A stretch of DNA of 37,534 bases from an uncultured Clostridia bacterium (GTDB taxonomy: Bacteria > Bacillota > Clostridia > Christensenellales > Borkfalkiaceae). Each line of letters opens with the position of its first letter. Positions within the stretch are counted from its first letter, which is position 1. The notes under the pieces are model-generated. The model worked only from the letters and a program-made list of their open reading frames with translations, did no database searches and had not been told where the DNA came from. This document shows positions 8,819 through 17,728 of this stretch, piece after piece. The translations under genes and the position numbers were made by a program. The stretch spans positions 1-37,534 of the forward strand of contig CANQUL010000007.1 in assembly GCA_947627015.1 (NCBI GenBank), in the 5' to 3' direction.

Positions 8819-9523
8819 TTATCGGGCACGGTCTGCCCCTTCATCCGATTCCCCGATGCCCTCCGTGAGTGCGGCGACAAGGCTTCTCTCGACGGGGTGC
8901 GCCTCGAAAAAGTTGCGGGGAAGGTCTCCGTCCACGGGGAAGTTGCCGAGCATCCTTCCGCCCTTTAAGACGATCGCGCGGTGGGAGAGGAGCGCCGCCT
9001 CATGCACGTCGTGCGTGACAAAGACGATCGTCTCGTGCCGCTCTTTCCATAGGGAGACGACCAGTTCGATCAGGCTTCTTTTCAGGGCGAGATCGAGGGA
9101 GGAGAAGGGTTCATCCATGAGAAGAACATCGTGCGGGAAGAGGAAGGCGCGGGCAATGGCGACGCGCTGGCACTCGCCCCCCGAGAGCGTCCCGGGCAAA
9201 CGGGTCTCCTTTCCCCTGAGTCCCACGCGCTCGAGCATGGGAGAGATCTTCCCGCGGTCCTCCTTTTTGAGGACAAAGGCGAGATTTTGCTCCACGGTGA
9301 GGTGCGGGAGCAGTTTTGCCTGCTGGAAGAGGTAGGAAGAAGTCCCTCTCCCCTCCACCGTTCCGTCATGGGAAGTCATCCCCGAGAGGATGTTGAGAAG
9401 CGTTGTCTTTCCCGCACCGCTCTCTCCGAGCACGGCGGTAATCTTCCCCTCTTCGAATTCGAGATCGATGTGCGAAAGCACCGTCCGATCTCCGTATGTC
9501 TTTCCGACGTCCTTAAGTCTCAT
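8819..9523 (-). CDS. ABC transporter ATP-binding protein (SsuB/TauB-like)
   Basis: Walker [24 protein letters not shown], Walker B DVLLMDEPFSSLD; ATGA overlap with the permease stop. Confidence 0.9.
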   Translation of the reverse strand: MRLKDVGKTYGDRTVLSHIDLEFEEGKITAVLGESGAGKTTLLNILSGMTSHDGTVEGRGTSSYLFQQAKLLPHLTVEQNLAFVLKKEDRGKISPMLERVGLRGKETRLPGTLSGGECQRVAIARAFLFPHDVLLMDEPFSSLDLALKRSLIELVVSLWKERHETIVFVTHDVHEAALLSHRAIVLKGGRMLGNFPVDGDLPRNFFEAHPVERSLVAALTEGIGESDEGADRAR

Positions 9524-10269
9524 GCGCGCCACCTCACGACAAGTTTTCCGAGAAGCGCAAACAGCCCTTCGAGCACAAATCCGAGCACGATGACAAGGAT
9601 CGTCAAAGCGAGAAGGCGTGGGATCTCAAGGGAGAGCTGGGCGTCCTGCATCATGCCGCCGAGACTCCTGTAAGTCTGGGCAAGCACTTCGCCCGAGACG
9701 GTGATCTTGAGCCCCATGGAGAGGATGGGCCCCGTCTGTCCGAGCACCGACGGCGCGGCAAGCGGGAAATACAGTCCGAAGATCTTCTTCCCGCGGCTCA
9801 CCCGGAAGGCTCGCGCGACGAGACCGTACTCCGCACGCACTTCGTCGAGTGCGGCGAGCATGGCGGCATAGAATGCGGGAAAGAGGACGAGGAGAGACAC
9901 GATCACGGGCGCAACGGCATGGGACGTCCACAGAAGGAGCAACAGGATGATTGCCATGGTGGGAACGGTCCGCAATACGGAAACGATCGGTGCGAAGAAG
10001 GCGCGGAGCCCGTCCGAAACGCATGCGAGCGCGGCCAGAAGGGACCCGAGGACGACCGCGAGCGCAAAGGCTTCGAGCGTCCGCAGGAAGGTGTTCCCGA
10101 ACGCACGCCAAAATGAGACGTCCGTAAAGAGACGTCCCATTGCGGCAACGGTCTCCCAAAAGGACGGGAGCACATAGTCATTCCCTATGAGAAAGTAGAG
10201 AAGCATCCACGTGAGCCACAGGATAGCGAGGGCGAGCGCGGAAAAGAGAATATTTTTTTTCACATCCAA
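9520..10269 (-). CDS. ABC transporter permease (SsuC/TauC-like)
   Basis: TM segments and VSRGKKIFGLYFPLAAPSVLGQTGPILSMGLKITVSGEVLA coupling region; start TTG at 10269 or GTG at 10263. Confidence 0.85.
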   Translation of the reverse strand: MDVKKNILFSALALAILWLTWMLLYFLIGNDYVLPSFWETVAAMGRLFTDVSFWRAFGNTFLRTLEAFALAVVLGSLLAALACVSDGLRAFFAPIVSVLRTVPTMAIILLLLLWTSHAVAPVIVSLLVLFPAFYAAMLAALDEVRAEYGLVARAFRVSRGKKIFGLYFPLAAPSVLGQTGPILSMGLKITVSGEVLAQTYRSLGGMMQDAQLSLEIPRLLALTILVIVLGFVLEGLFALLGKLVVRWRA

Positions 10270-11325
10270 TCACTGATTCTGATTTTTGAACGCCGTGGCC
10301 TTGGCCGTTGCGGCGGGTTCGGGGCAGAGGTAGTAATCGCACCCTGCGCCGGGGCCGACCGTCTTGGCGTCGGCAAAGGCAATGAGATTGACCTTGTCGG
10401 CGGCGGGCTTGGCATCGCTGTCAACGATTTGATACGGCACCTTCGCCTCATCGAGGAGCGAACGAAGGGTGAGCCCGGGCACGTTGTCGATCTGGACGAC
10501 CCCCACCGTGCAGCCGACGAGCGACTTGAGGTCTGCCTTGGAATTTATCTTGCTCTGATCGGAACGGGTGCGCATAAAATACATGTTTCCGTTGGTCACG
10601 ACGCCGAGCATCTCATAGCGTTCGCCCGTGCCGAGCAGTTTGGCGGCGATGTTCACGGGAAGGATGCAGAAGTCCGCATTCTTTGCCTCGTCCTGATTGC
10701 TCACTTGCGCGGGGATGGTCCCTGCCGCAACGATATGATAGGTGAATGCGTCCCCCTCCGTCTCGGATACGGCATAGGCGAGTGCGAGCGCGGGCGCGCC
10801 GTCGGGCGCAAAGACGGTATATTTCCCCGTCTGCGTTCCCGCTTCCGAATTCCCTTGGTAGAAGAATCCGTCCGCGGGCTGTGCGGTGAACGTTTCGCTG
10901 ACCGCGAGCAACTTTGTGAGGAAGGTCTTGACCGTCTCCTTGGCCGCAGCCGCTGCCGTAAACTTGACGGAGCAGTTCTTGATGACCTCTTTCGTGAGAT
11001 TTTTGGCGTTGAACGAGGGCTCGAGGCCATCGGCATAGGCCTTTGCGAGATCGGTCACGACGGCCGCGGGATCGGCCCCGGACAGATAGCCGTCTGCGCC
11101 CTGCATATACGAAGTCATGGCTGCGACGGCGGCAGGGTCTCCGTCGATGACCGACTTCTTGGCAACGAGCACGGCCTGCGGATAGCCGCCCTCGCCGTAG
11201 AGCGTCTGGAGGCTCCCCGCGATCTCAAAGACGGGCTCGGACGAATCGGGAAGCGTGCAGGATGCCATTCCGAAAACGGAAAGGACAAGCAGGGAACAAA
11301 GGATGATGCGTTTGAAAAATTTCAT
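10270..11325 (-). CDS. ABC transporter substrate-binding lipoprotein (NMT1/SsuA-like)
   Basis: MKFFKRIILCSLLVLSVFGMASC lipobox signal peptide; operon with permease and ATPase. Confidence 0.8.
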   Translation of the reverse strand: MKFFKRIILCSLLVLSVFGMASCTLPDSSEPVFEIAGSLQTLYGEGGYPQAVLVAKKSVIDGDPAAVAAMTSYMQGADGYLSGADPAAVVTDLAKAYADGLEPSFNAKNLTKEVIKNCSVKFTAAAAAKETVKTFLTKLLAVSETFTAQPADGFFYQGNSEAGTQTGKYTVFAPDGAPALALAYAVSETEGDAFTYHIVAAGTIPAQVSNQDEAKNADFCILPVNIAAKLLGTGERYEMLGVVTNGNMYFMRTRSDQSKINSKADLKSLVGCTVGVVQIDNVPGLTLRSLLDEAKVPYQIVDSDAKPAADKVNLIAFADAKTVGPGAGCDYYLCPEPAATAKATAFKNQNQ

Positions 11326-11362: not shown

Positions 11363-11611
11363 TCAATATTTACTGAACAGCGATTTTGCGCTCACGCCGG
11401 GAATGCTGCCGAGCTTGCCCGAGAGTGCGTTGACTTTGGCGGCGGGGGCATCCATCACGACGGACAGTACGGAGACGCCCTTCTCCCGATAAGGGATGCC
11501 CATTCTGCCCACGATGTATTCCCCGTATTCGGACAGGAGCGCGTTGACGCTCGCCGATTGCTCGCGGTCCTCCACGATCACGGACAGGACGCAGATGCGT
11601 TTTTCTTCCAT
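11363..11611 (-). CDS. TM1266-family (putative iron-only hydrogenase system regulator) ACT-like small protein
   Basis: 82 aa MEEKRICVLSVIVEDREQSASVNALLSEYGEYIVGRMGIPYREKGVSVLSVVMDAPAAKVNALSGKLGSIPGVSAKSLFSKY matches the TIGR03959/TM1266 pattern; SD GGGGAGG. Confidence 0.8.
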   Translation of the reverse strand: MEEKRICVLSVIVEDREQSASVNALLSEYGEYIVGRMGIPYREKGVSVLSVVMDAPAAKVNALSGKLGSIPGVSAKSLFSKY

Positions 11612-11749
11612 AAAAAACCTCCCCTTGCCGCAGGGCAAAGGGAGGCAATGCGAGCTTTCGCATGCGCTTCGGAATCTTCGCCCTTTGCGGTCAGAATCTT
11701 CTTTCCGTTCAGGTAGTATCATTGTATCATATCCGTGCCGAAATGGCAA
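11612..11749 (-). promoter_or_regulatory. Promoter plus attenuator-type structured leader of the TM1266-ABC operon
   Basis: TTGCCA (11744-11749)-N17-TACAAT (11721-11726). Terminator CCTCCCTTTGCC-CTGC-GGCAAGGGGAGG-TTTTTT ends directly at the ATG; upstream GCAAAGGG can pair with the terminator's CCCTTTGC. Confidence 0.75.
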
Positions 11750-17645: not shown

Positions 17646-17728
17646 TGGTGCCGCTGACAGGGATCGAACCTGCACGGTCGCCCATTGGATCCTAAATCCA
17701 ACGTGTCTGCCAATTTCACCACAGCGGC
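17646..17728 (-). tRNA. tRNA-Leu (anticodon TAG)
   Basis: Minus strand GCCGCTGTGGTGAAATTGGCAGACACGTTGGATTTAGGATCCAATGGGCGACCGTGCAGGTTCGATCCCTGTCAGCGGCACCA: 7-bp acceptor GCCGCTG/CAGCGGC, anticodon loop TT-TAG-GA, T-loop GTTCGATCC, encoded CCA. Confidence 0.95.

Follow-up and report, generated by a model that had tools for sequence, protein, structure and literature searches.

A candidate OFF-riboswitch class associated with [FeFe]-hydrogenase H-cluster biogenesis in Clostridia

In an uncultured Clostridia bacterium, a short leader with the layout of an attenuator precedes an operon for a TM1266-family protein and an ABC importer, raising the question of whether this leader is a regulatory RNA and what it responds to. 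The window, that is the whole stretch of 37,534 nucleotides analysed, carries the operon on the minus strand. Its genes encode the TM1266-family protein (11363..11611; PF21699 / TIGR03959), the lipoprotein binding protein of an NMT1/SsuA-like importer (10270..11325), a permease (9520..10269; PF00528) and an ATPase (8819..9532; PF00005). The assignment of the importer to the NMT1/SsuA type, made in an earlier note on this DNA, held, with relatives of the binding protein matching PF09084/TIGR01728 weakly and its profile matching PDB 3hn0. These sequence matches could not name a substrate. A related NMT1-type importer in another family lies downstream of a TPP riboswitch (L226:547-648; 70 bits), and the importer superfamily therefore spans different substrates.

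The leader combines a 5' hairpin, an intrinsic terminator and a strand that can pair with either. All of its features lie on the minus strand. The promoter (11721..11749) is of the sigma-70 type with an extended -10 element (TTGCCA-N17-TACAAT with TG before the -10 box) and places the predicted transcription start at about 11714, so that the transcript would open with a 36-nt conserved hairpin, UACCUGAACGGAAAGAAGAUUCUGACCGCAAAGGGC (11680..11715), the proposed aptamer. This hairpin is supported by covariance models R1-R3, by compensatory changes and by a fold z of -3.2 when folded alone. It consists of P1 (CCU, 11711..11713, with AGG, 11682..11684), P2 (ACGG, 11705..11708, with CCGC, 11687..11690) and P3 (AGA, 11700..11702, with UCU, 11693..11695). 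CG/UA exchanges are found at two of the three P1 pairs and compensatory changes in both P2 and P3, and the outer A.C position of P2 in the window is G-C, A-U or G-U in many relatives. The antiterminator strand GCAAAGGG (11681..11688) overlaps the 3' half of the hairpin, with the AGG of P1 doubling as part of it, and is complementary to 11642-11635 in the 5' arm of the terminator. A linker hairpin, ATGCGA-AAGC-TCGCAT (11648..11663), separates the two. The 12 bp terminator (11618..11645; stem 11645-11634 / 11629-11618, loop 11633-11630) also holds the Shine-Dalgarno sequence GGGGAGG in its 3' arm and is followed by a U-tract (11612..11617) directly before the ATG at 11611. The whole leader has a folding energy of -42 kcal/mol, with a z of -2.6 relative to shuffles, and the terminator alone gives a z of -4.1. 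No second sequence similar to the leader was found in its own genome.

Much of this layout had been proposed in the earlier note. Its promoter, terminator, U-tract abutting the ATG and Shine-Dalgarno sequence within the 3' arm all held at the positions given above, as did the 8-bp complementarity of GCAAAGGG to the terminator 5' arm. Two further elements that it listed, the ATGCGA hairpin and a repeat of GAAGATTC (11701-11694 and 11679-11672, read from the sequence), are present but not conserved in relatives and look incidental. The sensor had to be amended: it is the 36-nt hairpin at the transcript 5' end (11715-11680), which contains GCAAAGGG and had gone unseen.

Comparison with Rfam 15 yielded no accepted match to the leader or its relatives, in line with the earlier note, which could place it in none of the riboswitch classes that it considered. 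When the leader was searched with 4227 families at E<=10, only atoC RNA (RF01733) reached the cut-off, at 16.6 bits and E 3.2 with a gathering score of 50 bits, and its aligned pairs are those of the terminator. This and another weak match (PyrR, 28.5 bits) were judged to be due to chance or driven by the terminator. The TPP riboswitch model (RF00059) gave no match on the leader at gathering score or E<=10, and none on relatives. The sole Rfam match in the window at gathering threshold is a tRNA gene (17649-17728, minus strand).

The 5' hairpin is conserved as an RNA structure. As relatives we used homologues of the importer binding protein taken from same-family genomes and named contigs; their sources are uncultured Clostridia, several labelled Candidatus Gallimonas. 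A TM1266 gene stands in front of about 95 of the collected binding-protein relatives, and nearly all of the corresponding leaders start with CCUGA[A/G]CGGAAAG - variable loop - CUGACCGCAAAGG directly behind a TATAAT-like box, a feature that closely precedes the motif in most relatives. The GCAAAGGG strand forms the 3' end of this element; next come a variable linker hairpin, the terminator and the start codon. The layout is repeated in most of about 90 same-operon leaders and is therefore not a product of chance. The common fold consists of P1 (CCU/AGG), an internal loop RA/RA, P2 (4 pairs), an internal loop RA/GA, P3 (RGN/NCY) and a variable loop. Folded by itself, the 36-nt window sequence is predicted to adopt the same fold apart from the outer A.C pair of P2. 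Compensatory changes occur at 7/10 pairs among 68 aligned sequences, and 66 more diverged sequences found by model R1 show 107 compensatory cells compared with 37 for shuffled controls. In a set of 98 distinct sequences, 9/10 pairs have compensatory changes and 93.6% of cells pair, as opposed to 34 to 53% in slid controls. For 18 distinct matches from other families, most of which were left out of model building, the values are 8/10 pairs and 96% of cells. Slid controls collapse in every covariation test. Overall, the motif is present before more than 100 importer or hydrogenase-maturation loci with 7 to 9 of 10 pairs showing compensatory changes, the internal-loop letters being near-invariant while the stems vary. 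We consider it close to certain that this is a structured, regulatory RNA, and the leader likely belongs to a family of small RNA switches that has not been described before. In a P2 subgroup with GCGG/CGGC (L097, L092, L083, L084 and others of alignment A1), a G.G mismatch lies beside a new G-C pair, possibly reflecting a tertiary contact.

The hairpin is coupled to two different expression platforms. Within 115 nt of the motif, a terminator hairpin with U-tract is found in 117 of 125 distinct leaders, compared with 33 of 117 letter-shuffled ones. In these 117 leaders, pairing between the 3' part of the hairpin and the leader's own terminator 5' arm reaches -13.7 kcal/mol as opposed to -12.0 kcal/mol for swapped partners, and none of 2000 permutations of the terminator partners was as good as the own pairing. 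This last figure should not be read as a probability because related leaders are not independent. The antiterminator pairing covaries across leaders and is kept. Since the 3' part of the hairpin also pairs with the terminator 5' arm, hairpin and antiterminator are mutually exclusive. By energy alone the hairpin together with the terminator is the most stable fold of the leader, and antitermination must consequently be kinetic, depending on timing during transcription. The second platform, a separate line of evidence for the same logic, is found in about eleven genomes that carry a second copy of the motif between TM1266 and the binding-protein gene (for example L178:2946-2981, L015:2518-2554 and L206:2536-2572). 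In these copies the Shine-Dalgarno sequence falls within the P1 3' strand or immediately after it, with the ATG 6 to 11 nt further on, and copies before hydG are built similarly, overlapping or abutting the Shine-Dalgarno sequence. Folding of the hairpin at such copies is inferred to block translation, and both platforms imply that the folded hairpin corresponds to the OFF state, a logic that we regard as likely on inference. The leader meets two properties expected of a riboswitch: a conserved, covarying RNA fold in a 5' leader, and an expression platform that excludes the sensor fold, here terminator/antiterminator or a Shine-Dalgarno sequence in or beside P1.

Within the home family the motif follows the importer. 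A scan with R1 found it once per genome, at the importer locus wherever the context was readable. In several genera TM1266 is absent from the locus and the motif is still located directly before the binding-protein gene, indicating that it tracks the importer rather than TM1266. Displaced TM1266 genes adjoin, for example, short-chain dehydrogenase and thymidylate synthase genes by a sequence-based reading, and no copy of the motif was detected at these separate TM1266 genes. By the same kind of reading, a sigma-factor-like gene is usually also near the displaced TM1266 (L253, L255, L256, L258, L260, L261, L262). An R1 scan of the class returned matches in the home family only, making broader models necessary; two such models, R2 and R3, located the motif in other families of the order, again before TM1266 and the importer. 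A search of viral contigs found no relative of the motif.

The class-wide scan very likely ties the motif to H-cluster biogenesis. Outside the home family and family f18, all matches at E<3.1e-4 (L263-L269, L271-L275) are located at [FeFe]-hydrogenase loci. The motif directly precedes hydG (L263, L264, L266) or stands before hydE-hydG-hydF (L272/L314), TM1266-hydE-hydG-hydF (L268/L316), TM1266-hydE (L273, L274; the L273 copy lies upstream of TM1266 on a cut contig), TM1266-hydG (L275) or aspA-hydF (L271/L308; L269 is visible only as far as aspA). At L265 and L267 it is flanked by hydA on one side and by TM1266 with an ECF substrate component on the other. Weaker but well-placed matches lie before TM1266-hydG-hydF (L277/L315; E 0.002) and, found with R2, between hydE and hydG (L250). 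No copy preceding a maturation gene had entered the R2 alignment. NCBIfam confirmed the identity of HydG, HydE, HydA and AspA; the assignments of hydF and most neighbours rest on sequence reading alone. An aspA gene between hydG and hydF is also known from Pelobacter carbinolicus (PMC3543383). Upstream of TM1266-hydE-hydG-hydF, L268 carries tandem copies of the motif (1455-1480 and 1501-1535). At E<=0.01 about 4 chance matches are expected in 391 genomes, consistent with the six R3 matches rejected as false positives (L276, L278-L282), which have E>0.002 and lie inside coding regions. One R2 match (L249) was likewise rejected.

The genes behind the motif differ with the presence or absence of HydG. 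We searched for HydG in 64 motif-bearing genomes, comprising 50 of the importer group (49 with the importer seen and G012, whose contig ends behind hydA-motif), 2 with an ECF component and 12 with the motif on hyd maturation genes. No HydG above the cut-off was found in any of the 50 importer-group or 2 ECF-component genomes, and only sub-threshold matches of ThiH-like appearance occur in G040 and G082. HydG is present in 12/12 genomes with the motif on maturation genes. Within a family, the lack of HydG and the importer context each reflect common descent, leaving roughly 7 independent families against 10; counted in this way, HydG is found in 0/7 families on the importer/ECF side and 10/10 on the maturation side. 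Both the link to the hyd maturation genes and the lack of HydG in genomes with importers under the motif are shown by comparative data. HydE is likely absent from the HydG-less genomes as well, an inference resting on the cross-match of HydE to the HydG profile in the 12 genomes and the lack of any match elsewhere. In G163, G200, G261, G206, G012 and G060, hydA is the gene immediately upstream of the motif. In G095, G191 and G219, hydA adjoins an importer without a detected motif; importers of the same type beside hydA and lacking a detectable motif are seen at L305:1924-5662, L310:2192-6566 and L219. One RNA element in front of biosynthetic genes where these are present and of an importer where they are absent resembles, by analogy, vitamin riboswitch regulons, suggesting that the importer probably supplies the sensed compound or a precursor of it. 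Because the motif precedes either maturation genes or importers where HydG is missing, sensing of something from hydrogenase assembly is probable.

Taken together, we propose a new candidate class of OFF-riboswitches for [FeFe]-hydrogenase H-cluster biogenesis, to which we assign a probability of roughly 0.72 in the absence of bench data and of an identified ligand. The hairpin, the terminator, the covarying antiterminator pairing and the Shine-Dalgarno copies are shown by comparative data; the steps of the switch are inferred. The sensor would be the 36-nt 5'-end hairpin, with its purine-rich loops RA/RA and RA/GA flanked by the covarying P1, P2 and P3. With ligand bound, P1 would occupy the GCAAAGGG strand, allowing the terminator to form and switching the operon OFF; without ligand, the same strand would pair with the terminator 5' arm and transcription would continue. 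At other loci P1 would instead close the Shine-Dalgarno sequence. Binding of a small molecule by the RNA is likely, with no binding data available and protein binding not separated from it. The ligand may be a small molecule that H-cluster assembly produces or requires, most likely an intermediate, product or dedicated precursor, its identity remaining open. The importer would bring this ligand or its precursor into bacteria without HydG, a putative salvage route; HydA has not been established in the window's genome. As regards the earlier note, the comparative data support its candidate riboswitch or attenuator upstream of the TM1266/importer operon, with ligand binding inferred, and its mutually exclusive antiterminator and terminator folds. 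The check it suggested, covariation in leaders of homologous operons, returned both a covarying hairpin and, across 117 leaders, a covarying antiterminator pairing. The ligands that it put forward (HMP/thiamine, purines, sulfonates) find no support, the motif tracking [FeFe]-hydrogenase maturation genes.

The main rival explanation is that the hairpin is a protein site, with TM1266 binding the RNA, with or without an effector of its own, to control its own operon and the hyd genes. TM1266 is a small protein named as a putative hydrogenase-system regulator, very frequently occupies the first position after the motif and is encoded by 19/20 tested genomes of the family, including those where it lies away from the motif. 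Against this, the motif is kept at the importer, hydG, hydE or aspA where the next gene is not TM1266, separate TM1266 genes in such genomes have no detected copy, and G148 contains the motif without a TM1266 match, in a genome only 89% complete. We consider this reading unlikely, as we do a riboswitch for a general nutrient common to hydrogenase-maturing cells, such as tyrosine, cysteine, SAM, iron, lipoate or a thiamine precursor. In its favour, both tyrosine and SAM are used by HydG, the importer belongs to the NMT1/SsuA type, and in G261 and G206 the motif controls an ECF substrate component. However, no match outside the home family (E<3e-4) lies at genes of such general pathways, TPP sensing is already covered by a separate element before a ThiT-like gene, and HydG absence goes with importer control.

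Explanations without any sensing RNA fare worse. A plain intrinsic terminator or attenuating hairpin would account for the strength of the terminator and its position next to the start codon, but the conserved part is the upstream hairpin, which also occurs without a terminator before hydG and the binding-protein gene; this reading is very unlikely. A related reading, of a repeat family or a terminator alone, was rejected, the leader being unique in its genome and the upstream hairpin its conserved part. A DNA operator for a repressor bound just downstream of the promoter is suggested by the home family, in which the motif begins immediately after the -10 box. Compensatory pair changes in the stems, conserved purine internal loops and intergenic copies adjoining Shine-Dalgarno sequences all but exclude it. 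Stems covarying around near-invariant internal loops thus disfavour both operator and sensorless terminator.

The proposed riboswitch shares features with several described classes and differs from each. The CCUGA...AGG stretch with its internal loop resembles the pyrophosphate-side arm of the TPP riboswitch, a likeness that serves as a lead only; in contrast to RF00059, our motif has no second arm and no Rfam match. A degenerate TPP-riboswitch-like element precedes a ThiT-like gene in the window's own genome (L200, G000:C2:69329-69417, + strand; 33.8 bits, below gathering score), with similar sub-threshold copies in most genomes of the family, and TPP sensing is therefore separate from the motif. 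The HMP-PP riboswitch (thiS motif), whose aptamer is embedded in a terminator stem and whose binding turns genes ON (PMC6478431), is likewise a compact sensor with a terminator platform at cofactor-biosynthesis genes. Unlike it, our conserved hairpin stands apart from the terminator, on its upstream side, is predicted to act as an OFF switch and adjoins hydrogenase maturation genes rather than HET-P/thiamin genes. Thiamine or HMP-PP as main hypothesis was rejected on the missing Rfam match, the differing thiS-motif features and the separate TPP-type element. The xanthine riboswitch (NMT1 motif), reported from Proteobacteria at purine genes (PMC7373994), is also a small OFF hairpin with conserved internal-loop nucleotides and some members before NMT1-like transporter genes; it has a bulged two-stem junction, however, and our motif is not beside purine oxidation or transport genes. 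No Rfam match links this family to the motif, but its presence in the library was not confirmed by accession. Like our motif, Moco/Wco riboswitches are cis-regulatory RNAs for a metal-cofactor pathway, with tandem Wco members reported to precede genes for ferredoxin hydrogenase (PMC9481103); they differ in gene set and in the lack of an Rfam match to our motif. The Moco/Wco fold is much larger than our motif.

No riboswitch for [FeFe]-hydrogenase assembly, hydEFG or TM1266 was found in Rfam or in the literature searched. In a bolder reading, which we put forward only as a possibility, the riboswitch would sense an organometallic compound, either an intermediate or the end product of H-cluster assembly, and would be served by dedicated salvage importers. 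Conceivable ligands include products of HydG, HydE or HydF, for instance an iron species ligated by CO/CN or the two-iron subcluster. NMT1-type ABC and ECF importers might then allow HydG-less gut bacteria to take the cofactor from neighbours and activate their own [FeFe]-hydrogenase. Apo-hydrogenase is known to be activated in living cells by added synthetic two-iron complexes (PMC6984386), and salvage of the cofactor is therefore chemically possible. If the proposed riboswitch class is real, it would make the cellular sensing of H-cluster biosynthesis status accessible to genetics, give a role to the unexplained TM1266-importer operon and turn the importer set into candidates for uptake of the hydrogenase cofactor or its precursors. 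The motif is spread across many anaerobic gut bacteria, and the question of how gut anaerobes with HydA but without HydG obtain an active hydrogenase would become directly testable.
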